Shown here: positions 3,875 to 37,957 of the stretch, piece by piece
How positions within the stretch are numbered: position 1 is the stretch's first letter
Layout: every line of letters starts with the position of its first letter
IMG/VR virus record: IMGVR_UViG_3300034272_002144
Location: 1 to 42,480 of that record
Strand: one strand, 5' to 3'
Length of the DNA stretch: 42,480 nucleotides
Source of the DNA: a virus
The notes under the pieces: generated by a model
The model's input: the letters and a program-made list of their open reading frames with translations, nothing else
The model's database searches: none
What the model was told of the DNA's origin: nothing
Program-made: the position numbers and the translations under genes

Positions 3875-3883
3875 GTTTTACCC
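3875..3883 (-). promoter_or_regulatory. Late-type motif GGGTAAAAC
   Basis: Minus-strand GGGTAAAAC ends 16 bases before the ATG at 3858. Its TAA is the stop codon of the upstream gene. It is one of seven copies in similar positions. Confidence 0.55.
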
Positions 3884-4474
3884 TTGAGCTTTTACAACTC
3901 TCCACGCAGTAAGCCCTGCACTGACTGCTACAGAGACAATGTTGATTGACGCTTTTAGGATTTCGTGGAACTTCTCGTCGAAGGGAAGTCTCGTCCTATC
4001 AAATGTAAATCTTTGGTTGTAGATCCACTTCCAAAGTGGTACACGGACATCCTGTGGAACAACGGGGTTGAACCACCCGCTGAATTTTTGCTGAATGTCG
4101 ACGGCTAAAATACCGTTATCATACAGTCTAACACGGGAGAAGTTCATTTCCCCCGTGTAGTTAACTGGTCTGCCGTTAATGTTATCAGCTACCCATACGC
4201 TCACGTCCGCTTGGACTGTCTCATGCTTACCTCGTTGAAACATCAAGTCAAGCTCGGTGTCCCCGTTGAGGAAATTGAAGCGTTGGCTAACTCCGTTGAT
4301 GCAGACCTTTACATCACCATTTGGGAATCGTGGATCCTTCGTCGGAAAGGTCTGACATGTTAGAGGTTTGGGCAGCAGCAGGCTGGTTTTGTCTTTGATG
4401 ACGTAGAATGCACCGATGCCGAGAGTGATAGATCCGCCAACCGCGAGAGTCGCGATTTGGCGTCTATTCAGCAT
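3878..4474 (-). CDS. Unknown protein with N-terminal membrane anchor
   Basis: 198 residues, no family recognised. A short basic N-terminus (MLNRRQ) is followed by a hydrophobic segment of about 20 residues (IATLAVGGSITLGIGAFYVI), then a ~140-residue soluble part rich in beta-type sequence (QRFNFLNGDTELDLMF, VQADVSVWVADNING) and a second hydrophobic or amphipathic helix near the C-terminus (ILKASINIVSVAVSAGLTAW). Two cysteines (C40, C58 region) could pair outside the cytoplasm. A late-type motif lies 20 bases upstream. Roles such as virion or envelope-associated or lysis-related are open. Confidence 0.7.
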   Translation of the reverse strand: MLNRRQIATLAVGGSITLGIGAFYVIKDKTSLLLPKPLTCQTFPTKDPRFPNGDVKVCINGVSQRFNFLNGDTELDLMFQRGKHETVQADVSVWVADNINGRPVNYTGEMNFSRVRLYDNGILAVDIQQKFSGWFNPVVPQDVRVPLWKWIYNQRFTFDRTRLPFDEKFHEILKASINIVSVAVSAGLTAWRVVKAQG

Positions 4475-4494
4475 GGCTGTTTCCTATTTTGAGG

Positions 4495-4503
4495 CTTTTA
4501 CCC
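4495..4503 (-). promoter_or_regulatory. Late-type motif GGGTAAAAG
   Basis: Minus-strand GGGTAAAAG directly follows the TGA stop of the 48-residue gene and ends 20 bases before the ATG at 4474. Confidence 0.55.
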
Positions 4504-4650
4504 TCAGAGACCTTGCCCGCGATAACGCTTTTTGCGTCCGTTGCGTGAGGTGGCTGCGAGGTTGGTGTTCTTAGACCGTCCCTGGCTGGTCTTCTTGACC
4601 ACCGGAGTGATCTCGAGCTTGTTCGTCAGGGATCCCTTGGGTTTTGCCAT
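4504..4650 (-). CDS. 48-residue basic protein ending KKRYRGQGL
   Basis: A small gene below the usual length cut-off: MAKPKGSLTNKLEITP at the N-terminus, then KKTSQGRSKNT, and RKKRYRGQGL at the C-terminus. The K/R-rich body with the terminal KRYRGQG element is a recurring type of tiny cyanophage protein of unknown function; a nucleic-acid or RNA-polymerase-binding role would fit its charge. It overlaps the 3' end of the preceding gene by 80 bases in another frame, and its stop abuts a late-type motif. Recognition of the C-terminal motif makes it more convincing than a chance frame. Confidence 0.7.
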   Translation of the reverse strand: MAKPKGSLTNKLEITPVVKKTSQGRSKNTNLAATSRNGRKKRYRGQGL

Positions 4651-4882
4651 TTTCTAGCATCGTGATTTGATCTTGGATAGACTGAAGGAAGGCTCGTTCG
4701 AAAGTAGCCTTCCGCTCGTCAGTCTCGTTGAAGTAGCTCAGCCATTCCGCACACTCGCTGCCGTCGGGGGCTTCGAGATGGATGGTGGATGACCCGTCCT
4801 CATGGTCAGTGAACGACACTGAGAGGTCGTCCAGAGCTGAGGGGTGAGGCCACCAGATCTCTGTGGGATTGGCGTAGTCCAT
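4571..4882 (-). CDS. Conserved-looking hypothetical protein, Hli operon
   Basis: 103 residues from the ATG at 4882 (MDYANPTEIWWPHP). An upstream in-frame ATG exists at 4930, but the 4882 start lies one base after the stop of the 28-codon gene (TGAAATG), which argues for coupled translation. The sequence has a beta-rich first half (LSVSFTDHEDGSSTIHLE) and a helical, acidic second half (ERKATFERAFLQSIQDQITML). The final ~25 residues overlap the next gene and look unconstrained. The function is unknown. Confidence 0.65.
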   Translation of the reverse strand: MDYANPTEIWWPHPSALDDLSVSFTDHEDGSSTIHLEAPDGSECAEWLSYFNETDERKATFERAFLQSIQDQITMLENGKTQGIPDEQARDHSGGQEDQPGTV

Positions 4883-4883
4883 T

Positions 4884-4970
4884 TCAGTAGGTCTCGGACA
4901 GTTGGTTGATAGAGTGTGCAAGAAGCACAAAGAAGGCGACCGACGTCACAAGAAAGACCGGTGCTGCCAT
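4884..4970 (-). CDS. 28-residue single-span membrane peptide next to hli
   Basis: The frame encodes MAAPVFLVTSVAFFVLL followed by AHSINQLSETY. It is a hydrophobic span of about 17 residues with a short polar C-terminus, the size and shape of the very small subunits of photosynthetic complexes (PsbM/PetN/PsaM class), though I cannot match it to any of them. Its ATG shares a base with the hli stop (TGATG), and its stop is one base from the next ATG, so it is framed on both sides by coupling signals. Hence I regard it as a real gene despite its length. Function unknown. Confidence 0.6.
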   Translation of the reverse strand: MAAPVFLVTSVAFFVLLAHSINQLSETY

Positions 4971-5188
4971 CAGAAAATGCCGGGAATGATTTGCCCGGTT
5001 ACAGCATAGGCTCCAACGGCTGCAAGGAAACCGAGCATTGCCAGGCGTCCGTTGAGCTTCTCAGCACGCTCGTTATGAGTCTCGTAGATGCCGTCTTTCA
5101 TTTGTTGTTCCGCTTGGGGGTCGATGTACATTGTCGGTTCCTTGGCCCACGCATTCAGCTGGCCGAACTCGTTCTTAGTAACTGCCAC
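4970..5188 (-). CDS. hli: High-light-inducible chlorophyll-binding-like protein (Hli)
   Basis: Single-helix member of the chlorophyll a/b-binding family, inserted in host thylakoids to protect photosystems during infection. The C-terminal signature HNERAEKLNGRLAMLGF then AAVGAYAVTGQIIPGIF contains the ExxNGRxAM pigment-binding core and the TGQIIPG ending typical of cyanophage Hli. The N-terminal KNEFGQLNAWAKEP is also seen in such proteins. I chose the GTG at 5188 (72 residues): an earlier in-frame GTG at 5209 lies only four bases after the -10 element, and the ATG at 5131 would remove the conserved EFGQLN part. It has its own promoter, placed inside the 3' end of the upstream gene. Confidence 0.9.
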   Translation of the reverse strand: MAVTKNEFGQLNAWAKEPTMYIDPQAEQQMKDGIYETHNERAEKLNGRLAMLGFLAAVGAYAVTGQIIPGIF

Positions 5189-5213
5189 TGAACTGTGGGC
5201 GAAGTACACCTTT

Positions 5214-5243
5214 ATTGTAATGAAACTAAACGTTTGGTAAACC
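5214..5243 (-). promoter_or_regulatory. Promoter for hli
   Basis: Minus-strand GGTTTACC is followed 16 bases later (counted from TTTACC) by TACAAT. It lies across the last codons and stop of the upstream 53-residue gene, giving hli an independent transcript start around 5207. Confidence 0.65.
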
Positions 5244-5387
5244 TTCGTCCGGTTCTTGCTGGGACTTTAGGCGAGCCTTCTGCTCCTTACGGTTACGCAG
5301 CCACAGTTGGAAGTAAGCCAACTCGGCGGGCGAAAAAAGCTCCGGATGCTTCAGAGCGTTCTTAGCAAGCTTCTTTTTCTTTGTCAT
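5226..5387 (-). CDS. 53-residue conserved cyanophage protein
   Basis: The frame reads MTKKKKLAKNALKHPELFSP, then AELAYFQLWLRNRKEQK. The KHPELFSPAELAYFQLWL pattern is one I recognise as a recurrent tiny cyanophage protein of unknown function: a basic N-terminus, then an amphipathic helix ending in a lysine/arginine-rich stretch. It overlaps the speD stop by four bases (ATGA), so it is the coupled second gene after speD. Its 3' end carries the hli promoter. Confidence 0.75.
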   Translation of the reverse strand: MTKKKKLAKNALKHPELFSPAELAYFQLWLRNRKEQKARLKSQQEPDEGLPNV

Positions 5388-5734: not shown

Positions 5735-5735
5735 C

Positions 5736-6821: not shown

Positions 6822-6990
6822 TGGTTTCAAACTCGAAGTACTCGTCAATGTGCAGCCAGATGGCGTCCCACATGGACTCCCTCAGGCCACTCTCTGTGGG
6901 CTGGTCAACGTGCTTGTGAGCACGACGCCAACCGTCACGGAGCCCTTCCTCGATGCAACGCTCAAGGAGGGCACGCTCGTTGACTCGCAT
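6814..6990 (-). CDS. 58-residue hypothetical protein
   Basis: The frame reads MRVNERALLERCIEEGLRDG then WRRAHKHVDQPTESGL and ends HIDEYFEFETND. Its ATG shares a base with the sigma-factor stop (TGATG) and its stop overlaps the next ATG by eight bases, so it is clearly embedded in a translationally coupled run. The sequence is helical and charged, with no known motif. Cotranscription with the sigma factor might hint at a regulatory partner, but that is only position. Confidence 0.7.
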   Translation of the reverse strand: MRVNERALLERCIEEGLRDGWRRAHKHVDQPTESGLRESMWDAIWLHIDEYFEFETND

Positions 6991-7598
6991 CAGGCGAACG
7001 CCGCCAGCTCAGGGTACAGCTTGCGAGCACGAGCTGAGAACTTGACAACGTAGGAGTGGACAGCCTGCTTGGACAGACCGTACTTTTCTGCAATCTCGCA
7101 GTTGCGAAGCTCCTCGCGACCGAACAGGCCGAACTTATCACAGAGCACCTGGGCTCGCTTACTCGTCAGGTCGCCACAGATCTCGAGCATCATCTCCTTC
7201 ACTTTGCCTTCGGGAATATCCATCGACACCTCCATGGAGATTGAGGGGTCCTCCAGCTTTCCACTGCGTTTGAGTGATTCGTAGCTGGTAGTGAACTTCG
7301 GGTGCTTTTTCTCCTTGCGAGCGAGCCCTTGGACTGCACCCCGGACGCACGGGAAGGCCAGGGTCATAAACTTGTATCCACGCTCGGGTTGGAACTTCTG
7401 GATGGCCTTGAAGACCCCCAGGCGACCCTCTTGGATGAGGTCGTCATAGCTGTGCTTGGAAGCCATCCAACCGTACTTGCGAGCGGTTTTGTGAACGAGT
7501 GGCTCGTACTGTTTAATGACGCGAGCCAGGGCACGTTGGTCCCCCGACTTGGCCTTTTGAATCAGCTCCAGCTCAGACATTTTCTTGGTGTTAAGCAT
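6990..7598 (-). CDS. RNA polymerase sigma factor, gp55-like
   Basis: 202 residues with a sigma-70-type layout: region 2 at about residues 10-95 (LIQKAKSGDQRALARVIKQY, DLIQEGRLGVFKAIQKF, then FMTLAFPCVRGAVQ in the -10-binding helix), a linker, and region 4 at about residues 140-195 with a helix-turn-helix (RNCEIAEKYGLSKQAVHSY). No region 1 is present. This is the size and plan of the late-transcription sigma factors of T4-type cyanophages. It should redirect host RNA polymerase to phage late promoters; the GGGTAAAAY motif seen seven times here is a candidate target. A second ATG (7580) may be the true start because the promoter lies very close to the first ATG. Confidence 0.88.
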   Translation of the reverse strand: MLNTKKMSELELIQKAKSGDQRALARVIKQYEPLVHKTARKYGWMASKHSYDDLIQEGRLGVFKAIQKFQPERGYKFMTLAFPCVRGAVQGLARKEKKHPKFTTSYESLKRSGKLEDPSISMEVSMDIPEGKVKEMMLEICGDLTSKRAQVLCDKFGLFGREELRNCEIAEKYGLSKQAVHSYVVKFSARARKLYPELAAFA

Positions 7599-7956: not shown

Positions 7957-8467
7957 GGTCAACCTCCGAATAGTAAAGGATTTGCACTCCAGACTCAACC
8001 AAGATATCACTGGCGATTTGGAAGTTCGCCCTCCACCTTTCCGGAGACAACGCCGGATTTGGACAAACGACCACCTCCACACCTGCCTGAATCAGGGCGG
8101 CAGCGCACTGACTGCAGGGTGGGAAGGTTACATACGCGGTGCAGGATTCTGTGTTAGCACCATTTTTTGCTGCGTTGAACAGAGCGTTCTTCTCAGCATG
8201 TACGACGATAGCCAACTTGTACTCTCTATTTTCGTACAAGTCAAGTGAGTCGGACAGTGTGGCTGGAAAGCCATTGTAACCCGTTGCCAGGATACGACGG
8301 TCTTTCACCAACACACAACCAACTGTCGTCCCAGGGTCCTTGGACCAAGACCGGACTTCCTCAGCGATGCGAAGGAAGCGACGGTCCCAGTGATCAAGAA
8401 AGACATTCGGCGACACCGATGAGGTCGTAGAAGTCGACGAGGGATGATCCGAAGTTGTTTGCGACAT
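7913..8467 (-). CDS. Deoxycytidylate (dCMP) deaminase
   Basis: Zinc-dependent deaminase converting dCMP to dUMP, feeding thymidylate synthesis by ThyX. Landmarks are WDRRFLRIAEEVRSWSKDP, VKDRRILATGYNGFP, the zinc/catalytic HAEKNAL (H90, E92 counted from the ATG at 8467) and PPCSQC (C118, C121). The N-terminal ~20 residues are only Ser/Thr-rich and lie over the preceding gene, so the true start may instead be the GTG at 8416, just before PNVFLDHWD. No good ribosome-binding site decides between them. The last ~15 residues after YYSEVDLG overlap the next gene and look unconserved. Confidence 0.88.
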   Translation of the reverse strand: MSQTTSDHPSSTSTTSSVSPNVFLDHWDRRFLRIAEEVRSWSKDPGTTVGCVLVKDRRILATGYNGFPATLSDSLDLYENREYKLAIVVHAEKNALFNAAKNGANTESCTAYVTFPPCSQCAAALIQAGVEVVVCPNPALSPERWRANFQIASDILVESGVQILYYSEVDLGNQGVRDVRSPLG

Positions 8468-8645
8468 CTCGCTTGCTTTTGAAGTTCTGCCCGTAGTGAT
8501 CAGTGGAGTCAACGAAGCCATCCCAGTTTGCTTGGAGCTCAGCTAGACCGAACTCCACCTGGATGAAGGAGAGGACCAAGGCTAGGTCCTCATCTTTCGC
8601 AGCGATGGCAAACACATGGTCAAGGGAGCACTGAGAGGCTTTCAT
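8394..8645 (-). CDS. Hypothetical protein
   Basis: 83 residues, acidic, with a helical N-terminal half (DHVFAIAAKDEDLALVLSFIQVEFGL) and WDGFVDSTDHYGQNFKSK in the middle. No family recognised. It is the first gene after a promoter and overlaps the dCMP deaminase start by 74 bases if the ATG of that gene is used. Confidence 0.6.
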   Translation of the reverse strand: MKASQCSLDHVFAIAAKDEDLALVLSFIQVEFGLAELQANWDGFVDSTDHYGQNFKSKRDVANNFGSSLVDFYDLIGVAECLS

Positions 8646-8666: not shown

Positions 8667-8694
8667 AGTATAGGGGTGGGGCGAGGGGGTAAAC
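8667..8694 (-). promoter_or_regulatory. Early/middle-type promoter before the deaminase genes
   Basis: Minus-strand GTTTACC directly follows the mazG stop (TGA), then 15 bases and TATACT. Between the -10 and the ATG at 8645 there is a reversed copy of the box (GGTAAACC), so the promoter is framed by an inverted repeat that could bind a regulator or fold in RNA. Confidence 0.65.
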
Positions 8695-9773: not shown

Positions 9774-10159
9774 TAGCCCAGAGGCAAACGAAGTGAAGGA
9801 ACGTAGCCGTTTTCGCTCACACGGCGAACGCCGATGATGAAACGACCAGTGAAGTGCTCACCCTCTTTCGGCAGGATGTAAAGCCACTTCACGAGTTGCC
9901 AAAAGGGAACTAGGAAGAAGGAGTGCTCCAGGTCTTCGCAACCCTTGGCGTAAAGCTTGCACAGCAGGCGAGGAGTGAACATGGAACAGAAGACTTCCAC
10001 GTCCTGCACGGTGCCGATCTTATCAGCGAGACCAGCGGGGTCATCGATGCAGGTGAAGCCTTCGGACTCAAGCTGCTGTTTTAGACGCAGTTGCTTCTGC
10101 GACTCGTATGTGTAGGCATCCACAGTTTCTTGGGGAACGGTGATAGTTGACATTGTCAT
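9773..10159 (-). CDS. Hypothetical protein coupled to the helicase gene
   Basis: 128 residues from the ATG at 10159, which has a strong GGAGG eight bases upstream and overlaps the helicase stop by four bases (ATGA); a longer frame starting at 10249 is unlikely. Sequence landmarks are QKQLRLKQQLESEGF, CIDDPAGLADKIGTVQDVEVFC, and FFLVPFWQLVKWLYILPKEGEHF, then a basic strand GRFIIGVRRV. The tight coupling suggests a replication accessory protein, for example a helicase loader or clamp-associated protein, but no motif shows this. Confidence 0.7.
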   Translation of the reverse strand: MTMSTITVPQETVDAYTYESQKQLRLKQQLESEGFTCIDDPAGLADKIGTVQDVEVFCSMFTPRLLCKLYAKGCEDLEHSFFLVPFWQLVKWLYILPKEGEHFTGRFIIGVRRVSENGYVPSLRLPLG

Positions 10160-12144
10160 TTTACCCCCTCCACCGAGTAGATCTTTTCGCGGGCTGCCTT
10201 GCGGAACTTCTCCGCACGGTCTGGTGAGTAATTCTTGTTTGAAAGCCATTCGTCATAACATTTGACAGAGGAAGAGAGTATCCTCTCATGGTCCTGCTGA
10301 TTAACAGTGTCCAACAGGAAGCTGACCTCCTCAGTGATCTCACCTGTGGCGTGACGCATATTCTCCCAGTTCTCGACAACGTAGGTCATGCCGCCGCCGA
10401 TCTTGAAGCCGTCTCGCATGATGATCATCTCCATCATGCTCTTGATAGTCTCGGGAGCGGTCTTGCCTCCGCTGTAGGAGTTGACATTCTCGCCATACCA
10501 GTCGATGGACTTCTTGACGGACTCCCACCGAAGCTCACGGAATCCTTGGTAGTAATGAGTGGACGGACGTCCTGCCTCCTCCCACCGACGCTTCATCTTG
10601 TTCATCAACTCGTAACAAGACGGGTCAACGCCAACGAAGTAAAGCGAGTTCAGGTGTTCCGCAAGGACCTCCGGCGTAAGCTCGGGAGTTTCATAGTCCT
10701 CAGCTCCTGTGCGGAGGGCGTGTGCGAAAGCCATCGCGTTGACGAGAGCCTGCGTGACGTCCGCCTTGAACCGAATCCTCTGCCGAGTCGTCCAGTACCG
10801 CACTTCGACCTGGAGCCGGTTAATTGCCGGATCTTCAGTGTCCGTAATGACCTCCCAGAAGCGATCAGTCGCGAGCCGTAAACACCAGAGGTAAAGAGCC
10901 TCCGGAGCGACGCCGAGTTTGTTGGCCAGGAACGGAATATGAGCACGCGGCCGCAGGTCTGGAGAACCCTCCGACGCAGTGCCCTGTAGGTGCTTCTGAT
11001 TCTTGAATACCTCGTACTCCCGATAAGTTGACAGGATCTTGATGCGATCGATAATCCCGGGGTCAAGCTCATAGGCAAAGTTCGCATTCCAGTCGTTCGA
11101 GTTGACGATAATCGTGCAGCGGGGCCAGATCTGCTCAGCGTTCTGAAACTTCTCTTCCGCTTGAAACAGACCGTTGGTGATGAGGATCTTGGTCTCTTCG
11201 GCGGACAAGAACGCTCGCAGAGACTTCATGGCGGTGTCGTCTTTGTAAGCGACGTCAGCCAAGGCAGCCGCCTTGAGACCGAAGCGATCCTCGGTGGACT
11301 TGAAAGTGTGAGTGTTGAATCCGCACTTCGAGAAGGCGGCAGTCATGCCGTTGAACACGGTGGACTTGCCAAGGCCAGCGTCCTTACCGACAACCACAGC
11401 AGCCATACGAGCGGTGTGATCTACGGGAGAACTGAATCCAGGTGGCAGATGATTCGCTCGCCCAACGCCAACTCGCCCGAGGATGAGTTTGAGCAGTTCA
11501 CGCTCCGCGTGAGGGAAGATGGTGAAGACATCCTCAAGACCAACATCGTGAAGGACAGGGTCAAACCACTTCCGAGCAGGAACCCAAAGACGAGGATTCC
11601 GAACCGGATGGTTCCCGGTGAGGGTGCCGTCTGGATCAAACGTTTGACCATAGTCGAGAACGTCATGGATGTTTTGGTTGGACTGAATCCGCTTCATCTT
11701 GAGCAGACGGTCCGTGAAGCAAAACAAGTCGTTCTCTCCACCCTTCGGTCGAAACAGCGGTTGCCAGAAGTCACGGACTTCGCTCTCGGCAGAGTCGAAG
11801 ACGCCTTCAATTCGTTTGAAGTCCTCCAGTGTTGAAATATCTTGGAGCGGTTGGAAGCTCGACGGATAGGTAATCCCCTTGACTGCCGGAGGTGGAGCTG
11901 GTCGGAGAATCCTGTGATTGATGTGCTCTGCACCTTCGCAGAGTTCGATTGTGTAGAAGTGCGACTTCAGCAGGTCCACGCCTTTCGTGTAGAGCTCAGA
12001 AAGGTTCGTGGCTGCTGGACGCTCTTCAGGGTCTTTTTTGTTCTTCTTGAATCGCTCACCTCGTGGTTTGCGTTCTTTGACCTCGGTAAGGATACTCATT
12101 GACTGCGGGTCAGAGAGCGGTCCACCTGAGAAACGGTCTGTCAT
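10156..12144 (-). CDS. SF3-like P-loop ATPase, probable replicative helicase
   Basis: 662 residues. A central ATPase core carries Walker A GKDAGLGKS (residues 253-261), a Walker B-like LADVAYKDD (295-303), the sensor/motif C strand CTIIVNSN (343-350) and an Arg-containing DPGIIDRIKIL (361-371) that could supply the arginine finger. The spacing of A, B and C within about 100 residues is the superfamily 3 pattern, the helicase type of small DNA viruses, D5-like primase-helicases and some phages, not of DnaB. The N-terminal ~200 residues lack an obvious primase motif; the C-terminal ~250 are helical. It sits after the ssb-like gene with its own promoter. Helicase activity is inferred. Confidence 0.75.
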   Translation of the reverse strand: MTDRFSGGPLSDPQSMSILTEVKERKPRGERFKKNKKDPEERPAATNLSELYTKGVDLLKSHFYTIELCEGAEHINHRILRPAPPPAVKGITYPSSFQPLQDISTLEDFKRIEGVFDSAESEVRDFWQPLFRPKGGENDLFCFTDRLLKMKRIQSNQNIHDVLDYGQTFDPDGTLTGNHPVRNPRLWVPARKWFDPVLHDVGLEDVFTIFPHAERELLKLILGRVGVGRANHLPPGFSSPVDHTARMAAVVVGKDAGLGKSTVFNGMTAAFSKCGFNTHTFKSTEDRFGLKAAALADVAYKDDTAMKSLRAFLSAEETKILITNGLFQAEEKFQNAEQIWPRCTIIVNSNDWNANFAYELDPGIIDRIKILSTYREYEVFKNQKHLQGTASEGSPDLRPRAHIPFLANKLGVAPEALYLWCLRLATDRFWEVITDTEDPAINRLQVEVRYWTTRQRIRFKADVTQALVNAMAFAHALRTGAEDYETPELTPEVLAEHLNSLYFVGVDPSCYELMNKMKRRWEEAGRPSTHYYQGFRELRWESVKKSIDWYGENVNSYSGGKTAPETIKSMMEMIIMRDGFKIGGGMTYVVENWENMRHATGEITEEVSFLLDTVNQQDHERILSSSVKCYDEWLSNKNYSPDRAEKFRKAAREKIYSVEGVK

Positions 12145-12230: not shown

Positions 12231-13190
12231 TCAGAAATCCAGGTCGAAGCTCTCAGCGTCGTGAACGAAGCTGGTGCACTTCAGTGTGCATTTCGCGGTG
12301 GCGAATCCGTTCCATTCCCCGTGTTCGCGAACTGCCAGGAAGGCAGGCTTGTCAGGGGTAACTTCCGGATCAGCTGCCAAGATTTTCTTCAGGGCAGCGT
12401 TAGGCTTCACCACACAGAAGTCGCTGATCTCGATCTCCACATCCGTCCACTCACCGTCGACTTGTTGACGAACGGGGGCAGTAAAGGGCTCGGTGATTAC
12501 GGCTTGCATGAAGTAATCCATGCCGTATTGACCGTCCTTGGAGCGGATCTGAGTGATGGTATATTCACCGATCGGTAGGTAGGCAACCTTGACGAAGGGT
12601 CCTTGTAGGCGTTCGCCAGATGACTCACTACGCTTGGAGGGGTCACTTGCGACTTGGACTTGCTCAGCAATCGCATCCGGGTTCTCAGACAACAGAACGT
12701 CGAGGATGTCACCGGTGAGGCGATTCTCGAAGTCAGCACTGCGAACAGGCACGGGGAGGGAGAACAGAGTTCCTCCTTCACTGACTGCCACGTTGAGGAC
12801 GGGCTCGGTGTACTTACCGATTTGCTCTTCCTTGAACGCGAGCTTGAGTCCCTTTTGGCCAGTGGCCACAGAGAGTTTTCCATCACCGACGGTGAGGGGG
12901 ATATCTTCGTTGCCCCACCGCACAATCAGACCTTTATCCTCTGTGGAAAAGACTGTTGGGCTATACAGACGCTTGAAGGTTCCGTTTGCATCCGAACGCA
13001 CTGTGAAAGTAGTGCCTTCTTCAGGGAGTTCGTTGCCTGTAAGACCTTTGTAGATGGCGTTGAGTGCCACCTTGTAGGTTTCTGGAAGAGCACGATTCGG
13101 GATGTCAGTAAACGGCTTGGAGTACTGACGAGCCTCAAGGCGAGCCCTGTTCTTTTCGTCCAGGGTGGGCAGAATCTTTTGAGTTTTCAT
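12231..13190 (-). CDS. Candidate single-stranded DNA-binding protein with DLDF tail
   Basis: 319 residues from the ATG at 13190; a GTG 21 bases upstream is possible but less likely. Two beta-rich halves: the first includes TTFTVRSDANGTFKRLYS, the second reads GEYTITQIRSKDGQYGMDYF then AVITEPFTAPV and resembles an OB-type barrel. The C-terminus is acidic and aromatic, ...AESFDLDF, as in single-stranded DNA-binding proteins whose last residues recruit partners (bacterial SSB, T7 gp2.5). Its own promoter, terminator and position before the helicase fit an abundant replication protein. The family assignment is inference from these features, not from a recognised domain. Confidence 0.6.
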   Translation of the reverse strand: MKTQKILPTLDEKNRARLEARQYSKPFTDIPNRALPETYKVALNAIYKGLTGNELPEEGTTFTVRSDANGTFKRLYSPTVFSTEDKGLIVRWGNEDIPLTVGDGKLSVATGQKGLKLAFKEEQIGKYTEPVLNVAVSEGGTLFSLPVPVRSADFENRLTGDILDVLLSENPDAIAEQVQVASDPSKRSESSGERLQGPFVKVAYLPIGEYTITQIRSKDGQYGMDYFMQAVITEPFTAPVRQQVDGEWTDVEIEISDFCVVKPNAALKKILAADPEVTPDKPAFLAVREHGEWNGFATAKCTLKCTSFVHDAESFDLDF

Positions 13191-13251
13191 TGTTAGCTTT
13201 GAAGGGAGCACACGTTGACCCGAGCCCTATTGCCCGGCGTGAGCTGATTGT

Positions 13252-13280
13252 ATTATACCGGGGTGAGGGGGAGGTAAACC
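13252..13280 (-). promoter_or_regulatory. Promoter for the ssb-like gene
   Basis: Minus-strand GGTTTACC, 15 bases from its TTTACC to TATAAT, with the shared flanks GGTTTACCT and GGTATAAT. It lies over the last codons and stop of the homing-endonuclease gene, 62 bases before the ATG at 13190. Confidence 0.7.
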
Positions 13281-13801
13281 GCCGAGAACCCCCTAGTCTT
13301 GCCGCCGTCTCGAGCTGCTTTGGACAGGTTGCCTTGACTGAGGCTAAGGAACCTGGCGGCTGTGGATGCGGAGGGGAAGACGAAGCTGTCTCCGCTCTGA
13401 ATGTGAGTGACTACAATGGGCTTCGAGTTTCGTTTGCCCTGGTTGTAGCCGCTCTCTTGAAGTTTAAGTCGCCCCCGAGCTGAGGGGCGTGAGCGTGATC
13501 CACCTATCGAACCGTATAGGGTGCCGACCCGTCGTCCGTTCTTTCGGAGAATCTCGGTCGGCAGATGATCGAATCCACCGCAGTGCCTCCCTCGATTACC
13601 TTTATGCCAGCCAAGATAGTGGATGCTTGGCGAACACACATAGAGATGCTCAGGTATGTTTCGCCCACCTTGAGACCGTGGTGGTTCGTGGTGAACGTGC
13701 ATTCCGATCATTTGTTCATCAGTGAGTCCCCAGTGCTCTTGGGCTACCTTTCGGTAGTTAGGGGACTCCTGAGATAGCGTCAAGGACAGTTCAGGTTTCA
13801 C
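13253..13801 (-). CDS. HNH homing-type endonuclease
   Basis: 182 residues with a GTG start. An HNH-type core lies near the N-terminus: IGMHVHHEPPRSQGGRNIPEH (H35, H37, H38, then N48) and SIHYLGWHKGNRGRHCGG. A basic linker (RSRPSARGRLK) leads to a C-terminal DNA-recognition module (about residues 125-182: KPIVVTHIQSGDSFVFPSAS, AARFLSLSQGNLSKAARDG), the NUMOD1/IENR1-like repeat of free-standing phage homing enzymes. It is placed between tail and replication modules and is flanked by two near-identical promoters. It is a mobile gene that would cut uninfected relatives' DNA at this locus. Confidence 0.85.
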   Translation of the reverse strand: MKPELSLTLSQESPNYRKVAQEHWGLTDEQMIGMHVHHEPPRSQGGRNIPEHLYVCSPSIHYLGWHKGNRGRHCGGFDHLPTEILRKNGRRVGTLYGSIGGSRSRPSARGRLKLQESGYNQGKRNSKPIVVTHIQSGDSFVFPSASTAARFLSLSQGNLSKAARDGGKTRGFSAVYLPLTPV

Positions 13802-13807
13802 GCCCCG

Positions 13808-13836
13808 ATTATACCCCCCTGGAGCTCAGGTAAACC
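13808..13836 (-). promoter_or_regulatory. Promoter for the homing endonuclease gene
   Basis: Minus-strand GGTTTACC overlapping the hub-gene stop (TAG), then 15 bases and TATAAT, six bases before the GTG at 13801. The very short leader may make this mRNA leaderless, or the promoter may mainly serve the ssb-like gene beyond. Confidence 0.65.
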
Positions 13837-21159: not shown

Positions 21160-21168
21160 GTTTTACCC
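21160..21168 (-). promoter_or_regulatory. Late-type motif GGGTAAAAC
   Basis: Minus-strand GGGTAAAAC, 24 bases before the GTG at 21135. It is the only copy not touching an upstream stop codon (the stop is 46 bases away), which favours a role independent of translation termination. Confidence 0.6.
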
Positions 21169-25065: not shown

Positions 25066-25091
25066 ATGATGGGTAAGTTGACTCCAAACAC

Positions 25092-25121
25092 AGTATACCT
25101 ATGAGCATCGGTAAGGAAACC
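25092..25121 (-). promoter_or_regulatory. Possible promoter for the DNA-metabolism run
   Basis: Minus-strand GGTTTCC, 17 bases from GTTTCC to TATACT, 27 bases before the GTG at 25065. The -35-like box lies in the first codons of the divergent gene. It matches the variant box seen at the SF3-like ATPase gene. Confidence 0.5.
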
Positions 25122-26572: not shown

Positions 26573-26894
26573 CAGAGGAAGGTAGTAGGTCAGTAACTTC
26601 GTTTTCAGAAGGGAGTTGAGAAATTCTAGCACCAACGATCATGTTGGCTAAGATCGTGTTTGTGACATTGGATTTGTCCACCATTTCGTTTCTCATGCTT
26701 TCTACGGCAGCACCGGTACTTCGTTGCTGAGCAGAGTTTTCAATCAGCAGGAAAGGCATCGCTCCAACAACACACATTTGCTGGTCGAGTTCTTTCCCGC
26801 TGTTGACATCGTACCCTCGAATGGTGGTCCACCAAGCACATTCATGCTCGATGCAGGGTTTCCGTAGTAGTGGGCAGGTGATTTTACGTGGCAT
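26565..26894 (-). CDS. Conserved phage protein with CPLLRKPCIEHECAWW motif
   Basis: 109 residues. The N-terminal pattern CPLLRKPCIEHECAWWTTIRG, then DQQMCVVGAMPFLLIEN and QQRSTGAAVESMRNEMV, is a widely distributed phage family; four cysteines (C7, C13, C18, C41 by count) may bind zinc or an Fe-S cluster. The middle helix LLIENSAQQRSTG is the best conserved part. Function unknown; it is often found near other accessory phage genes. Start and stop overlap neighbours (TAATG and 8 bases). Confidence 0.78.
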   Translation of the reverse strand: MPRKITCPLLRKPCIEHECAWWTTIRGYDVNSGKELDQQMCVVGAMPFLLIENSAQQRSTGAAVESMRNEMVDKSNVTNTILANMIVGARISQLPSENEVTDLLPSSDG

Positions 26895-27898
26895 TAGTTT
26901 TTGGACGCGATAATCATGTCGTAGTATTTGACCGCCAAGTTGATTGCGTTTCCGGAGAAGGAGGCAGAACCACCCACACCTCCGGTCACAACATGACTGT
27001 GAGTTAAAGGATTTCCGTCGAAAGACCCATTCCCAGTAACGCTATGGTTATGGCTAAGGGGGCTTCCGTTGAAAGTTCCACTTCCAGAAACGCTGTGGCT
27101 ATGGCTCAACGAGTTACCGTTGAAAGTTCCACTGTTTCCACTAATGGAGTGGGTGTGTTGACCGTTGCCACCAGAGGATTCCGTTTGCGATGAGGTCTGA
27201 TTATTGACCCCGCCGATTGTTCCCCCTTGGCTTCCACCTGCGGGCCTTTGTTGGTAGGTGTGTGTGTGACTGGCGATCTGAGTGACAGAGAGGGTCACAG
27301 GCCCAACAGTGGCACCAGAAAGAGAAACAGTACCCGACGGTGTTTGGTTAACCGTGTTAGTGTTAAGACCGGACAGGTTCACACTGCCGGAAGGTGTCTG
27401 GCTAACCGTGTTGGTGTTAAGACCCGACAGGTTGACACTTCCCTGAGGAGTTTGGCTAACAGTATCAGTAGAGGCTCCGGTCAATGCCAGCCCTGAAAGA
27501 CTGATATTCCCGGTTACGGGCTGAGAGGTAAAGGCAGTGGTGAAGTCAACTGCCCCACCAGTAAGTCCCCCCTGCCCACTGACGATCCTAAGTGCCGCGT
27601 TATTCGTAGTTGTAACTTTAGTCCAACCCGTTGGGGCAGCGGCGTTTCCGAAGGAAAGTATGGTTCCACCGGGAAACTCTGAGGAGGGGCCAGAGCCATT
27701 GGCAGCAGCGGTGATACGACCGTACTGATCTACCGTCAGGTTGGTGTTAGTGTAGCTTCCGGGAGTAAGGGTAGCCCCAATCGGCACCAGACTTACAGTT
27801 CCGTCAATTGAAATGGCAATCCCGGTCCCCTGTTTCACTGAGCCTGTGACTCCAGGACCCCCAGGGACCGCCATCAGCTGGGCCTGATTAAGCGGCAT
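26894..27898 (-). CDS. Tail fibre protein with collar-like domain and HxH repeats
   Basis: 334 residues. The N-terminal module AQLMAVPGGPGVTGSVKQGTG shares a family with two other fibre genes. Then follows a GTILSFGNAAAPTGWTK collar-like segment, repeats QTPSGSVNLSGLNTNTV (three copies), and a C-terminal array of histidine pairs: HTHTYQQRP, HTHSISGNS, LSHSHSVSG, LSHNHSVTG, LTHSHVVTGG, ending VKYYDMIIASKN. The (S/N)H(S/N)H spacing of about 20 residues is like the metal-binding needle of T4 gp37. It is a paralogue of the upstream gene. A probable receptor-binding tip. Confidence 0.8.
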   Translation of the reverse strand: MPLNQAQLMAVPGGPGVTGSVKQGTGIAISIDGTVSLVPIGATLTPGSYTNTNLTVDQYGRITAAANGSGPSSEFPGGTILSFGNAAAPTGWTKVTTTNNAALRIVSGQGGLTGGAVDFTTAFTSQPVTGNISLSGLALTGASTDTVSQTPQGSVNLSGLNTNTVSQTPSGSVNLSGLNTNTVNQTPSGTVSLSGATVGPVTLSVTQIASHTHTYQQRPAGGSQGGTIGGVNNQTSSQTESSGGNGQHTHSISGNSGTFNGNSLSHSHSVSGSGTFNGSPLSHNHSVTGNGSFDGNPLTHSHVVTGGVGGSASFSGNAINLAVKYYDMIIASKN

Positions 27899-27922: not shown

Positions 27923-27931
27923 GTTTTACCC
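27923..27931 (-). promoter_or_regulatory. Late-type motif GGGTAAAAC
   Basis: Minus-strand GGGTAAAAC, 24 bases before the ATG at 27898; its first G is the last base of the upstream TAG stop. Confidence 0.55.
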
Positions 27932-28890
27932 TAGCTCTTGGTGCAGTGAATGACGTCCTTATACCTGACTGAGAACTGAGCAGTTGCCGTCCCGGTGAAA
28001 CTACCGCTGGCACTTCCGGAGACCGAGCCGGTAACCGTATGAGAGTGAGACATTGATTGACCGGTGAATGCCCCACTCGCAGAGCCCCCCACAGAACCTG
28101 ACACAGTGTGTGAGTGAGACAACTGTTGACCGGAAAACGTTCCAGTGTTTCCGCTGATGCTATGAGTATGCTGGCCGTTGCCACCGGTGGCTTCCGTTTG
28201 CGCTGAGGTCTGGTTGTTAACACCACCCGCTCCTCCACCTTGGCTTCCACCGCTCGGCCTTTGTTGGTAGGTGTGCGTGTGGCTCGCAATTTGGGTTGTG
28301 GTCAGTGTCATGGCACCGATGGTTGCACCGGACAGAGACACGGTACCTGCCGGAGTCTGGTTAACCGTGTTGGTGGTGGCACCGGACAGAGCTAGGCCAG
28401 AAAGACTTACGGAAACTGTTCCCTTGGGGGTCTGATCAACTTGGTTAGTTGCTCCACCGGAGAGAGAAAGACCCGAAAGACTCACGCTGACTGAACCTGC
28501 CGGCGTGTAACTTGCAAAGGCCGAGGAAAACGCAGTGTTGCCGCCAGACCCACCACCGGTGCCGGACACTAGACGCAGGGCGGCATCGTTTACATCTGTT
28601 GCTTTAGTCCAACCAGGAGGAGCGGAAGCTTGTGCAAAAATCAAAGAGGTCCCAGCGGGGAATCCGTCTCCTCCTCCACCCCCACCTGAGGCACTAATGG
28701 TGACAACACCTACGCCGCTTGTAGGGTTAATAGTAACGTTCGTCCCGGCTACTACCTTTGTAATGTTGCTGCCCGCGTCTACGGACACTGTCCCATCGGC
28801 TGAGATGGATATACCTGTCCCTGCTTTAACGGAACCAGTTACCCCAGGACCACCTGGGACCTCCATGAGTTGGGCTTTACTTAAAGGCAT
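27931..28890 (-). CDS. Tail fibre protein, paralogue with HxH repeats
   Basis: 319 residues with the same plan as the next gene: AQLMEVPGGPGVTGSVKAGTG at the N-terminus, FPAGTSLIFAQASAPPGWTK collar-like segment, repeats VDQTPKGTVSVSLSGLALSG (SLSGL units), HTHTYQQRPSGG, then LSHSHTVSG and MSHSHTVTG, ending VRYKDVIHCTKS. The two genes are about 50-60% alike by eye in the central part and diverge in the repeats, as expected for a duplicated adhesin under host-range selection. Confidence 0.8.
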   Translation of the reverse strand: MPLSKAQLMEVPGGPGVTGSVKAGTGISISADGTVSVDAGSNITKVVAGTNVTINPTSGVGVVTISASGGGGGGDGFPAGTSLIFAQASAPPGWTKATDVNDAALRLVSGTGGGSGGNTAFSSAFASYTPAGSVSVSLSGLSLSGGATNQVDQTPKGTVSVSLSGLALSGATTNTVNQTPAGTVSLSGATIGAMTLTTTQIASHTHTYQQRPSGGSQGGGAGGVNNQTSAQTEATGGNGQHTHSISGNTGTFSGQQLSHSHTVSGSVGGSASGAFTGQSMSHSHTVTGSVSGSASGSFTGTATAQFSVRYKDVIHCTKS

Positions 28891-28911: not shown

Positions 28912-28920
28912 GTTTTACCC
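28912..28920 (-). promoter_or_regulatory. Late-type motif GGGTAAAAC
   Basis: Minus-strand GGGTAAAAC directly after the stop of the 1146-residue fibre gene, 21 bases before the ATG at 28890. Confidence 0.55.
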
Positions 28921-32367: not shown

Positions 32368-34506
32368 TCAGAACGGAGTCAGGTCGATTTGGACACGACC
32401 CCAAGTATTCGGGGCGTAGCAGAAGTAAAGATATCCAGCACCCCAAGCGATTTCACCGGTGGTACCAGTGGAGGCGGAACTAGCTGGAACAAAACTGGTG
32501 GAAAGAACCACGTTGCCACCAGTCACCGTGAGTGCGTTAGACCCAGCAGCTCCCCCCGAGTTAATGGTTACTTGACCGGTGAGTGACGCAGAGTCAATCG
32601 GGGCGTAAGTGGTAGCTGCAAGGGAAGAGGTCAACAAGCCTGCCGCCGCCGCTGACCGCCAAACTGGCAGTCCGGCGTTAACACTTAAGATAGTACCGTT
32701 GGCCCCGATCGGAAGCGAAGCGGGAGTGTTGGGTGCGGAGGCGAAGACCATGTCACCGGTCACGTCAAGCAACGTGGAGGAAACAGTGCCAGGGAAAGTT
32801 TGACCGGCGGCGAACGTAATCGCCCCTGTCATCGTACCGCCTGCCTTTGACAGAGCCGCCAGGGCGGTGTCATTAGCCGCCTTGACTGCCGTGGAAGACG
32901 CCGCGGTCGTGGAGCTTGTGGTGTTGACAGAGTTGCTAATCGAGAAGACGGAGGAACCATCGTTGAAGATGACTCCATCACCGGCGTTCTGGAAAGTCAA
33001 GTCCCCTGTGAGAGTGCCGCCGGAAAGAGGCAGGGCGGTATTAGCCAGGTCGTAAGCAGACTTGACGGCAGTGCTTGAGGCAGCTGTTGAACTCGAGGTG
33101 GTGGAAACACTGTCGCTAATGGCTTCAATAGTTGAAGCGTCATCGAATATCACGCCGACACCACTGCCGAACATCGTGATGTCGCCGGTCATTGTACCGC
33201 CGGTCAGAGGCAGTGCACCAGAAGCGACTAAAGTCTGAAAAGACAGGGTCCCAGAGCCGTCTGTCGTTAGAACCTGCCCAGTTGTACCGTCGGCCACGGG
33301 ATAGGTAAGGCCACTTGCCGTCAGCTTACTTGCGATGGTCATCCCCGTGGAGTCGATCGATCCCCACACTTGACCAAGTGTGACGTTTGTGAATTCAATT
33401 CCTGCACCAGAGCGAATCCGAAGAGAAGCACCGGTGATAAGAGACCCAATCGAGGCGCTTTGACCACTCAAATCCACACTGAGGTCAAGCAGCTGACCGA
33501 TCAGGACTCGTGGGAAATTAGATGACCTGGCATCGATGTTGATTCTGACGTCGCCCCCGCCACCGGGGCCAAGCATCTCAATCTGTGCATTGTCAATGGT
33601 ATTACGGTAACCGCCGACGGTGGGGCCTGTGAATGCGAGGGCAAGGGAAGACGTAGCCCCAGCAGTCAGAACCTGCTGGATGGTCGGGGTTGACCCAGCG
33701 GTTGCAGACAGGGTGCCGTCAGGAGCAACCGATAGGCCAGTTCCAACTTTGACACCTCCGATGGCTCCGGTTGTAGCAGGAACCAGACTCAAGATGCCGT
33801 CGGAGTCAATGGCTACGCCTTGGTTCAGTCCGGCTCTGACACCCCCTATATTCCCAGCGGAAGGGGCTGCCAAGTTAAGGGTCACGTTTCCGGATGTCCC
33901 GCCCCCGGTTAAGCCGATTCCGGCCGTAACTTGAGTGATAGTTCCTGTGCCACCAGTGGTACGCAGAGTTCCATCACTGGTGATTGAAAGTCCGAATCCT
34001 ACTTTAACTCCACCTATGGTGGTGGTGGTTGCTGGAACGACAGCCAGGGAACCTGAGGAGCTCACACTTAAGCCAGCTAAGCCGGTTACGGTGTCAACCC
34101 AGACTCCACCTCGTGCTGAAACCGAGTTGCCAGCCGCCAGGACTGACACAGTGCTCCCGATTGGTGTCACATTGGTGACAGAAATGCCAGTCCCCGGTTG
34201 AATAGTATACTCAGCGGCTGAGCGAATAACACCCAGACTGTCAATGGCTATACCCGACCCCGCCACTGTGCGAACCCCCCCGATGGTTGAGGAGGTAGGA
34301 GGGTTGAGGGCAACTATGACGTCAGTTGTCCCTGCAGTGGAGATTCCGTTGGTTCCCGTGATGGTTTTAACGACACCGCCTCCGGCAGTGGTGCTGATTG
34401 TTCCGTCAGCTGAGATAGTGATTCCAGGACCAGCTTTGACTGCCCCGGTCACACCGGGACCGCCGGGTGGGTCCATGAACTGTACGGTTGTGAATGTCGA
34501 GGCCAT
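32368..34506 (-). CDS. Tail fibre protein with GGTMTGDI repeats
   Basis: 712 residues. N-terminal type-B module VQFMDPPGGPGVTGAVKAGPG, then many GxGLSIxxDGTLxxT repeats (GGVKVGFGLSITSDGTL, GGVKVGTGLSVAPDGTL). In the second half, three ~58-residue repeats begin LPLTGGTMTGDI / LPLSGGTLTGDL / LSKAGGTMTGAI, a typical phage fibre shaft motif. The C-terminus ends GEIAWGAGYLYFCYAPNTWGR, a short beta cap seen in many fibre proteins. It forms trimers with a beta-helical or spiral stem in known relatives. Confidence 0.82.
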   Translation of the reverse strand: MASTFTTVQFMDPPGGPGVTGAVKAGPGITISADGTISTTAGGGVVKTITGTNGISTAGTTDVIVALNPPTSSTIGGVRTVAGSGIAIDSLGVIRSAAEYTIQPGTGISVTNVTPIGSTVSVLAAGNSVSARGGVWVDTVTGLAGLSVSSSGSLAVVPATTTTIGGVKVGFGLSITSDGTLRTTGGTGTITQVTAGIGLTGGGTSGNVTLNLAAPSAGNIGGVRAGLNQGVAIDSDGILSLVPATTGAIGGVKVGTGLSVAPDGTLSATAGSTPTIQQVLTAGATSSLALAFTGPTVGGYRNTIDNAQIEMLGPGGGGDVRINIDARSSNFPRVLIGQLLDLSVDLSGQSASIGSLITGASLRIRSGAGIEFTNVTLGQVWGSIDSTGMTIASKLTASGLTYPVADGTTGQVLTTDGSGTLSFQTLVASGALPLTGGTMTGDITMFGSGVGVIFDDASTIEAISDSVSTTSSSTAASSTAVKSAYDLANTALPLSGGTLTGDLTFQNAGDGVIFNDGSSVFSISNSVNTTSSTTAASSTAVKAANDTALAALSKAGGTMTGAITFAAGQTFPGTVSSTLLDVTGDMVFASAPNTPASLPIGANGTILSVNAGLPVWRSAAAAGLLTSSLAATTYAPIDSASLTGQVTINSGGAAGSNALTVTGGNVVLSTSFVPASSASTGTTGEIAWGAGYLYFCYAPNTWGRVQIDLTPF

Positions 34507-34526
34507 GTCTTCGCTATTCTAGAAGG

Positions 34527-34535
34527 ATTTTACCC
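34527..34535 (-). promoter_or_regulatory. Late-type motif GGGTAAAAT
   Basis: Minus-strand GGGTAAAAT containing the TAA stop of the upstream gene, 20 bases before the ATG at 34506. Confidence 0.55.
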
Positions 34536-35018
34536 GAGAGCAATCTCAAGAATGGCGTTTAATTCCTCGCCAGAAGTTGCTGATTGAAGTTCAGACGCTA
34601 CCGCCTGTTTTTGAGCCGAGACCTCAGAGACAAACTCTAAAGCCGTTGTTTGAGCCTCCGTCCGGTCTCCAATGGGGAGACTTAAAGCCAGGTTGATGTC
34701 CACCTCAGTCATCCCAAGCTCCGCTAGCCCGTCGCTATACTGGGCGTTCCAGTAGGCTGAGTTTGAGCCGAGAGCTGTAGAGCGAGCCAGGTCAAGATCG
34801 TAATCATAGACAGGGTCGCTGCCTGAGAGATCCACTGTCAGGGCGTTAAACACCCAGCGGGCATTTTGAGGCAGAGAGTCACTCTCAACGATCTTGTAAG
34901 GAATTCCCTGGTCGGCTAGAACCTTTTCGGCAGCCTCTTCAATCTCATCCAAGCAAGGATACATGATGCAGAGGTATGGAGTCCCTGTGGAGAGGTCGGG
35001 GTAAACGGCTACTTGCAT
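34530..35018 (-). CDS. Probable fibre-assembly protein
   Basis: 162 residues, acidic and helical, no trimer-type repeats. Landmarks are VYPDLSTGTPYLCIMYP, EKVLADQGIPYKIVESDSLP, ARWVFNALTVDLSG, and a helical tail ALEFVSEVSAQKQAVASEL. Size, acidity and placement inside a fibre locus fit a tail-fibre chaperone, and the text DSLPQNARWVFNALTVD is similar to short proteins adjacent to fibre genes in other phages, but no named family is certain. Confidence 0.55.
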   Translation of the reverse strand: MQVAVYPDLSTGTPYLCIMYPCLDEIEEAAEKVLADQGIPYKIVESDSLPQNARWVFNALTVDLSGSDPVYDYDLDLARSTALGSNSAYWNAQYSDGLAELGMTEVDINLALSLPIGDRTEAQTTALEFVSEVSAQKQAVASELQSATSGEELNAILEIALG

Positions 35019-35024
35019 GGTTAG

Positions 35025-36065: not shown

Positions 36066-36820
36066 TAGGTGATAGCAAGTCCGTAAAAGGTGTCTCCAGA
36101 CTTAGGAGCCTGAGTGAATACAATTTGGCTACCGCTTACGCCGTACCCGTTTCCTGGAATCAAAATTAACCCATTGATATAGATCATGAGTTGGTTCGCT
36201 GACACAGGGATGTATACGGTACCGTCAAGGCGTTGAAGAGTGAAGGCCGTTTGGGCTCCATTGAACCCGGGAGAGATGTCGCGGAGAGGAATCAGACCTC
36301 CGGTAGCGTTCAAGGTGCCGTCTACTGCGACGCTCAAACCTTGCCCGGGACGAACAATCCCTGGAAGGATTGCAGTAGCTACTTTGGCATTCAGGAGGCC
36401 ATCTTGAGCTACTTGCATCGTGGCTCCAGGTCGCACTCCGCCAATGACAATCGAAGTGGCAGGTAAGACATTCAAAATGCCCGACTCGGTAATAACATCC
36501 CCTGTATTAGGGGCACCGAGGCCGACTCCGGCTGTGATGGACCTCACTCCGCCGACTGCCTCATCTAGCTTCTTCTTGTCATCCGCACTCATATAACCCG
36601 CTGAGGTTTGAGTGGCTGCTGGAATCGTTACGATGGGGACTTGCCGGGTCCCTACCACCTGGATTGGAGACCCACCCTTCACCTGCTGAACAGCGGTGGA
36701 GATCGTCAACCATGTTCCCTTAGTATCGCTCCAGATGTACTGAACTACACCAGGGGGAACGGGGTCCTGAGGGTAGATCTGACCGTCCGTGGGGTTGCTT
36801 GGGAAGTTTAATGCGGCCAT
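36065..36820 (-). CDS. Tail fibre-like protein, type-A anchor with one FNG domain
   Basis: 251 residues. N-terminal ALNFPSNPTDGQIYPQDPVPPG, QYIWSDTKGTWLTIS, central repeats VIGGVRPGATMQVAQDGLLN and IVRPGQGLSVAVDGTLN, and a C-terminal domain RDISPGFNGAQTAFTLQRLD...YINGLILIPGNGYGVSG...FTQAPKSGDTF. The FNG...PP..G domain (about 75 residues) is shared with two other fibre genes here. The short protein may be a fibre connector or a minor branch. Confidence 0.75.
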   Translation of the reverse strand: MAALNFPSNPTDGQIYPQDPVPPGVVQYIWSDTKGTWLTISTAVQQVKGGSPIQVVGTRQVPIVTIPAATQTSAGYMSADDKKKLDEAVGGVRSITAGVGLGAPNTGDVITESGILNVLPATSIVIGGVRPGATMQVAQDGLLNAKVATAILPGIVRPGQGLSVAVDGTLNATGGLIPLRDISPGFNGAQTAFTLQRLDGTVYIPVSANQLMIYINGLILIPGNGYGVSGSQIVFTQAPKSGDTFYGLAIT

Positions 36821-36821
36821 C

Positions 36822-37916
36822 TTAGATACCTAGGACTTGCCCACTGAAAGTAGCCCCAGCCGGAGGTGGAGAACTGAAAGTGATTTGGTTAGTTGTGATG
36901 ACGTAGGCTTGGTTGGGGGTCTGAATGATACCGCCAACAGACACGAACAAGGAGGCTACGGAGGCAGGGTTGTAAGGTTGGCCTCCAACCGTGATTGGGA
37001 AGGTGACCCGGATGCCATTGAACTGAGTGGATATATCATCCAGAAGCTGGAACGACTGACCGTTTGGAACGAACAAACGCCCGCTGAATGAGGTTCCCGA
37101 GGGAGGGGGAGTTGTAAAGACGACCGTAGTGGTGTTTGCTACGAAGAACGACAGAGGCGTCGTTTGTAGAACTCCACCTAGAACAATAAACAGGTTAGCG
37201 GGTTGGGTGACGTTCTGAGTCGCTCCGTTGACCCTCAAGGAAAACTGAGTTGCTGTGCCATTGAACTGAGGAGAAATGTCATCCAGGATGACGAAAGCTC
37301 CGGTTCCTCCTCCTCCTCCATAGGCACTGATGACTCCGTTTGAATCAATGGTGACATTATTACCTGCTTTAACTCCCCCGATGTTACCACCTGCCGGGGG
37401 CCTAAGGAATACAGTTCCAGTGGTGGTAATGGGTCCGCCACCGATTCCGGTTCCAGTTTCGATGCGGGTCACACCGGAGAAAGCCTCCAGGGTTCCGTCG
37501 GGCAGAATTGTAACTCCAGCCCCAGCTTTAACACCCCCAATGGTGCCCCCGGTAGCCGGGAGAAGGGAAATGGTTCCGGACGTAGTAATAGGGCCGCCGC
37601 TGAGTCCTACGCCAGTGTTGATCCTGGAAACCGAGCCAATCTGAGACGGGAGGTTTCGAAGAATGATGTAGTCCTCTGAGGACATGGACCCGGGGCCCGT
37701 CTCACTAGCGGGTCGTATGTTGACAACGGGGACGGATACGGTTCCAGTAACAACGATCGGGTTGTTTCCAAGAACCTCTTGTACTGCTCCCGAAACGATG
37801 AGCCATGCTTTAATCTCAGCATTCCAGACATACTGGAAAACTCCAGCAACAGGGGTTGCCGGGAACAGCTGACCGTCAAAGGGAGCGGGTGGGAAATTAA
37901 GGGGCGTAAGAGCCAT
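36822..37916 (-). CDS. Tail fibre-like protein, type-A anchor with two FNG domains
   Basis: 364 residues. Type-A start LNFPPAPFDGQLFPATPVAG, QYVWNAEIKAWLIVSG, then GGPITTSGTISLLPATGGT and GGPITTTGTVFLRPPAGGN repeats with GGVKAGAGVTILPDGTL. Two tandem FNG domains at the end (DDISPQFNGTATQFSLRVNG and DDISTQFNGIRVTFPITVGG, each ending P..GTSFSGRL or P..GATFSGQV). The doubling of the end domain compared with the neighbour suggests growth by internal duplication. A late-type motif lies 32 bases upstream. Confidence 0.75.
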   Translation of the reverse strand: MALTPLNFPPAPFDGQLFPATPVAGVFQYVWNAEIKAWLIVSGAVQEVLGNNPIVVTGTVSVPVVNIRPASETGPGSMSSEDYIILRNLPSQIGSVSRINTGVGLSGGPITTSGTISLLPATGGTIGGVKAGAGVTILPDGTLEAFSGVTRIETGTGIGGGPITTTGTVFLRPPAGGNIGGVKAGNNVTIDSNGVISAYGGGGGTGAFVILDDISPQFNGTATQFSLRVNGATQNVTQPANLFIVLGGVLQTTPLSFFVANTTTVVFTTPPPSGTSFSGRLFVPNGQSFQLLDDISTQFNGIRVTFPITVGGQPYNPASVASLFVSVGGIIQTPNQAYVITTNQITFSSPPPAGATFSGQVLGI

Positions 37917-37948
37917 GTCGTGGAGGTCTGATGGCCTTCAATGAAAAT

Positions 37949-37957
37949 GTTTTACCC
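37949..37957 (-). promoter_or_regulatory. Late-type motif GGGTAAAAC
   Basis: Minus-strand GGGTAAAAC directly after the TGA of the upstream collar gene, 32 bases before the ATG at 37916 (the longest gap of the seven copies). Confidence 0.5.

Follow-up and report, generated by a model that had tools for sequence, protein, structure and literature searches.

The late promoters of bacteriophage T4 consist of a single short -10-type element without a -35 element, depend on a phage-encoded sigma factor and serve structural genes (PMC2988020, PMC2984593). Promoters read by SigB have GGGWAW as their -10 element, in the arrangement KTTTW-N12-17-GGGWAW (PMC9847131), and the SigF promoter of Synechocystis combines TAGGC at -32 with GGTAA at -12 (PMC2758279); among cyanophages, the transcription programme of the Microcystis phage Ma-LMM01 has been mapped by RNA-seq (PMC5780444). 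The present analysis concerns an octamer, GGGTAAAA, repeated in the viral contig IMGVR_UViG_3300034272_002144 (42,480 bases; "the window" hereafter means this whole stretch), which is part of the larger genome of a cyanophage related to Synechococcus phage S-CBWM1. From its distribution, GGGTAAAA is very probably a phage promoter element.

Like the T4 late promoters (TATAAATA, or NATAAATA in T4-like cyanophages), GGGTAAAA would be a single -10-type element, lacking a -35 and located before structural genes, for which a phage sigma factor is proposed; its sequence, however, is unrelated to TATAAATA, of which S-CBWM1 contains no copy. The gp45-type clamp (PF09116, PF02916) is absent in S-CBWM1 and four large relatives, while the T4-like cyanophage S-N03, used as a control, was positive; as for the sigma factors, the comparison with T4 is one in which only generic sigma families were matched. 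Within GGGTAAAA, GGGTAA agrees with the SigB -10, and the SigF -12 forms part of it (PMC9847131, PMC2758279), but, unlike the promoters of these factors, GGGTAAAA has neither a -35 nor a -32 element, is longer (eight bases) and is used genome-wide by a phage. The promoter classes of Ma-LMM01 are all SigA-like, with no phage-specific motif or sigma factor, unlike those of the S-CBWM1 lineage. No earlier report of GGGTAAAA was found in the open literature searched, which did not cover the original S-CBWM1 paper, so that its novelty is provisional.

Distribution of the motif in the window and in its lineage

The window contains eight copies of GGGTAAAA, all of them on the - (coding) strand and none on the + strand, against a chance expectation of 0.81 for both strands; 100 shuffles gave at most three copies, and the reversed octamer, taken as a control, does not occur. 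A preliminary description of the window had listed seven of these sites, followed by C, T or G, with 16-32 bases between the motif end and the start codon and with six of the seven touching or overlapping the upstream stop codon (two, at 34530 and 3878, supplying their own TAA). All this agrees with the sequence and its open reading frames; the list omitted the exact site at the end of the primase gene and the + strand variant GGGTAAGT. The site at 4496-4503 comes after the stop codon of an open frame of 49 codons, 4504-4653. The sites are as follows:

37950-37957, - strand: GGGTAAAA, proposed promoter of the tail-fibre-like gene 36822-37916
34528-34535, - strand: GGGTAAAA, before the tail-fibre gene 32368-34506; the TAA of the motif is the stop of 34530-35018
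28913-28920, - strand: GGGTAAAA, before 27931-28890 (weak tail-fibre match)
27924-27931, - strand: GGGTAAAA, before 26894-27898, whose N-terminus is like that of 27931-28890
21161-21168, - strand: GGGTAAAA, between the exonuclease gene and 20497-21135
10159-10166, - strand: GGGTAAAA, 3' end of the primase gene, 13 nucleotides (nt) before the ATG at 10153
4496-4503, - strand: GGGTAAAA, before 3878-4474 (product unknown)
3876-3883, - strand: GGGTAAAA, before 2890-3858 (product unknown); the TAA of the motif is the stop of 3878-4474
25071-25078, + strand: GGGTAAGT, flipped variant, 30 nt before the only + strand gene, 25101-25853

Since the window has only eight sites, and other 8-mers in it also reach 8-11 copies, it is the relatives, and not the window alone, that settle the reality of the motif. 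The closest cultured relative is S-CBWM1 (Aokuangvirus; 139,069 bases; protein identity of 55% for the primase and 47% for the sigma factor), a separate phage in which the gene order over the window stretch is conserved and GGGTAAAA precedes structural genes, as in the window. Megablast disclosed no near relative of the window among GenBank phages and, because a scan of viral contigs with the window sigma as query gave no match, relatives were gathered with the primase as query. Individual relatives carry G labels (for example G001 and G002, from IMG/VR), S-CBWM1 being L028, L029 and L030, and the genomes of the lineage span 46-57% GC.

The analysis of these genomes revealed that, in both S-CBWM1 (33 sense copies and 1 antisense, against 2.3 expected) and the 112-kb contig G010 (31 and 0, against 1.6), GGGTAAAA is the most over-represented 8-mer, and that in most genomes of the lineage no other word is as enriched upstream of starts as the motif or its core. 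When the genomes of the lineage are pooled, no 8-mer is commoner at 20-50 nt before predicted starts: this zone, corresponding to 3.7% of the sequence, harbors 124 of the 189 sites, with a peak at 30-34 nt. In a comparison of GGGTAAAA with the 279 other arrangements of its letters, 109 copies of it lay in the zone, whereas the permutations averaged 1.2. Most of these permutations, like most one-base variants, show no enrichment; the core is GGGTAA, the last two bases being looser in G014 and G005. In the outgroup cyanophages A-HIS1, S-TIM5, Mic1 and S-N03, the motif is not enriched beyond controls. The relatives thus strongly support the claim of the preliminary description, a phage-specific promoter element of structural genes unlike the TATAAATA of T4.

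As to gene content, the copies of S-CBWM1 precede portal, peptidase, capsid, sheath, tape measure, baseplate and fibre genes. Among orthologues, the motif occurs at 27 of 74 structural genes versus none of 116 genes for replication, nucleotide metabolism, photosystem and sigma factors, counts that are descriptive, the related rows not being independent; with the annotation of S-CBWM1 itself, the figures are 9/19 versus 2/22 genes (p = 0.012), the two being phoH and a nucleotidyltransferase gene. At a protein identity of 40-60%, the motif is common to 82 orthologous pairs, whereas 21 would be expected. It is present in 5/5 orthologues of the peptidase gene, including those of the distant relatives G005 and G015; at the gp2-family orthologue of 20497-21135, it is found in S-CBWM1 and in 6/11 orthologues; and an equivalent of the post-primase site, 10-14 nt ahead of the ATG, exists in S-CBWM1, G008, G012/G013 and G011.

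The orientation of the motif follows that of the genes. Outside G015, the lineage has eight antisense copies, four of which are found a short distance ahead of antisense genes (p about 1e-7). Among these genes is a phoH gene, placed on the strand opposite to the rest of its genome, while the phoH of S-CBWM1, also endowed with the motif, is on the main strand. Most orthologues of 25101-25853 have a variant of the motif upstream in the same flipped orientation. The fact that the motif turns round with inverted genes strongly argues that it is a directional signal of the following gene. Back-to-back pairs of the motif can be observed between oppositely oriented genes in G001 near 38574 (TTTTACCCGTGGGTAAAA) and in G002 near 43106, and might represent divergent promoter pairs. 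The gene 25101-25853 itself, the lone opposite-strand gene of the window, encodes 250 amino acids, has no Pfam match and keeps its inverted orientation in many relatives.

Structure of the element and a second, probable promoter class

The flanks of 172 non-redundant sites were analyzed. No conservation exists at -60 to -2, and hence no -35; of the host sigma70 arrangement TTGACA-N17-TATAAT, neither the -35 nor TATAAT is present at the motif. KTTTW at the SigB-like distance of N12-17 occurs upstream of 13/172 sites, a weak excess that is only a hint. The base preceding the motif is rarely T, the next two following it are mostly pyrimidines, and T-A-A is favoured at positions +13 to +15 counted from the motif start; this bias at a fixed distance fits a transcription start site. 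If the motif is a promoter, TAAAAY would be its -10 hexamer, with the RNA starting at position 14 or 15. The host RNA polymerase carrying a phage sigma factor would bind GGGTAAAA without using a -35, and RNA synthesis would begin some 6-8 nt beyond the motif, so that leaders would measure about 15-20 nt. In a minority of the sites of the lineage, including the post-primase site in several relatives, the motif is only 10-19 nt from the start codon, which suggests that the post-primase mRNAs may be nearly leaderless.

Terminators preceding the motif were considered as a general feature and discarded, the pooled counts being weak, and the motif as a replacement of the Shine-Dalgarno sequence was likewise rejected, since the frequency of the latter does not differ (9/22 genes with the motif versus 48/142 without it). 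In S-CBWM1, a recurring element roughly 30 bp long (similar to gatgtgaaagattattcactgtcccatggg), which includes a short inverted repeat, is located just upstream of the motif sites 26662, 65887, 126638 and 135703, and CTGTCCCA is among the top over-represented 8-mers of the same genome.

The same genomes offer an internal contrast. The bipartite pattern TTTAC-N16-18-TAYANT occurs 123 times on the coding strands of the lineage versus once on the other, and pairs with spacings outside about 15-18 drop to background. It precedes DNA polymerase, psbA and SNF2 in S-CBWM1, a sigma gene in some relatives (G012) and, in the window, deaminase, hli and nrd-side genes:

2628-2653, - strand: TTTAC-N15-TATACT, before 1968-2606 and nrdB
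5214-5241, - strand: TTTAC-N17-TACAAT, before the hli gene 4970-5209
8667-8693, - strand: TTTAC-N16-TATACT, before 8394-8645 and the dCMP deaminase genes
13252-13278, - strand: TTTAC-N16-TATAAT, before 12231-13211
13808-13834, - strand: TTTAC-N16-TATAAT, before 13253-13801

Judging from its sequence and position, this class resembles bipartite promoters of the early or middle type. In it, unlike at GGGTAAAA, a -35 is evident.

The two phage sigma factors and the proposed reading of the motif

The lineage encodes two sigma factors, of the gp142 and gp152 types, the former being the one present in the window:

6990-7598, - strand: gp142-type sigma factor, sigma2 + sigma4, RpoD/RpoS-like, a possible but not favoured reader of the motif

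The gp142 type matches region 2 in Pfam (57.9 bits) and is found in all the relatives that are long enough to include it; in its predicted structure, a linker modelled with low confidence connects region 2 to a region-4 helix-turn-helix, and its nearest counterparts are RpoD/RpoS. The gp152-type gene lies behind nrdA, which in the phage of the window presumably places it just beyond the end of the contig. In all members its product matches the SigB/F/G and FliA families; with TIGR02980, the SigB/F/G model, 9/9 members score about 45-53 bits, the cut-off being 234, and so rank as homologues rather than members of the family. Among sigma factors of solved structure, the best matches are SigB, FliA and SigF, and the top structural match is a repeat protein aligned only over a short helix-turn-helix stretch. 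Regions 2.3-3.0 are nearly invariant, while the sequence gives no sign of a region-4.2 helix-turn-helix, although helices are present at the C-terminus of the model; the part of region 4 that reads the -35 appears to have been lost in its working form. The gp152 type is the likelier reader because it is SigB/SigF-like and apparently devoid of a working region 4, which fits a promoter without a -35.

Taken as a whole, the explanation that GGGTAAAA is the -10-type element of a phage-specific, single-element promoter class for structural and other presumably late genes, read by a phage sigma factor and most likely by the gp152 type, is held with good confidence, that of the gp152 type as reader being somewhat lower, although better than even. 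The preliminary description had spoken of a late promoter: the sequences of the relatives back a phage-specific promoter element, while the lateness is deduced from gene content only. It had also named the sigma factor at 6990-7598 as the likely reader, a choice that finds no support over the second, SigB/SigF-like factor encoded outside the window.

Several observations weigh against this explanation. About a third of the pooled sites fall outside the 20-50 nt zone. With the exception of that of S-CBWM1, the major capsid orthologues have no motif within about 120 nt, and the same is true for the terminase orthologues. All the sigma matches are far below the curated subfamily cut-offs. In the distant relative G015, both sigma factors are present but the motif is nearly gone; of the two, the gp142 type shows the greater divergence there, a finding that would speak for the window sigma as the reader.

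This divergence, together with the solid identification and wide distribution of the gp142 type, lends some weight to the same promoter element being read by the window sigma; a factor of RpoD/RpoS type with regions 2 and 4 would be expected to use a -35, however, which the motif does not show, and the family known to read GGGWAW or GGTAA is that of the gp152 type, so that this alternative is rather unlikely. Still less probable is a reader other than the two phage types. In particular, the host SigF, or the host polymerase with a phage activator, might be thought to read the motif with no phage sigma involved, given that the cyanobacterial SigF uses GGTAA at -12 (PMC2758279); but its -32 element, TAGGC, is absent upstream of the motif at all spacings, the other cyanophages examined lack the signal, and the lineage has a SigF-like factor of its own, all of which makes this quite improbable.

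Explanations not involving a promoter fare worse. The tight spacing between motif and start, with a mode of 30-34 nt, would also be expected of a leader element acting at the RNA level, such as a translation enhancer or a processing site. Copies of the motif precede tRNA genes in S-CBWM1 too, however, so that a translation signal is unlikely; the unaltered Shine-Dalgarno frequency, the restriction to certain gene classes and the T-A-A bias also speak against it, as do the terminator-like hairpins directly upstream of some copies (striking at gp177), weak as terminators are in pooled counts. Such an element is thus very improbable. Even more so, and hardly worth retaining, is the idea that the motif arises from stop-codon context or is a strand-biased repeat of the Chi or KOPS kind, devoid of any part in transcription. 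The positional data already contradict it, unless genes were grossly miscalled: many sites do touch a stop codon and all the copies of the window are on the coding strand, but the concentration next to starts is strong, variants and permutations are mostly unenriched, the frame of the motif at the primase end varies among orthologues, and the motif flips with inverted genes. The preliminary description had been right in separating the motif from a mere stop-codon context.

On the preferred explanation, a broader scenario can be put forward tentatively, i.e., a clamp-independent late switch analogous to that of T4. The lineage would have acquired a SigF/SigB-type sigma factor, dropped the reading of the -35 and placed its structural regulon on GGGTAAAA alone, some mRNAs being nearly leaderless; earlier genes, including in some relatives that of the first phage sigma, would depend on TTTAC-N16-18-TATAMT, perhaps read by a host factor or by the first sigma itself, thus forming a two-sigma cascade. 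This is possible, albeit less likely than not to hold in all its parts.

Other genes of the window and significance

The window harbors genes for tail fibres, tape measure, thyX, an exonuclease, primase, dCMP deaminase, the sigma factor and nrdB, nearly all on the - strand. A 79-amino-acid protein with a weak chlorophyll-binding match fits a high-light-inducible protein:

4970-5209: hli gene

The fibre-like genes 26894-27898, 27931-28890 and 32368-34506 have a similar N-terminal stretch (PGGPGVTGSVKAGTGI-like), which suggests repeated virion-attachment domains.

From these findings, promoters can be mapped by prediction in a cyanophage lineage about which little is known, and the prediction is directly testable in its cultured member, S-CBWM1. 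Unknown genes of metagenomic phage contigs may be sorted into expression classes from their sequence alone. The lineage would also represent a simple test case of a sigma factor without -35 contacts working without the T4 clamp, and its organization suggests that cyanophages other than the T4-like ones can base late control on a single-element promoter of another kind.

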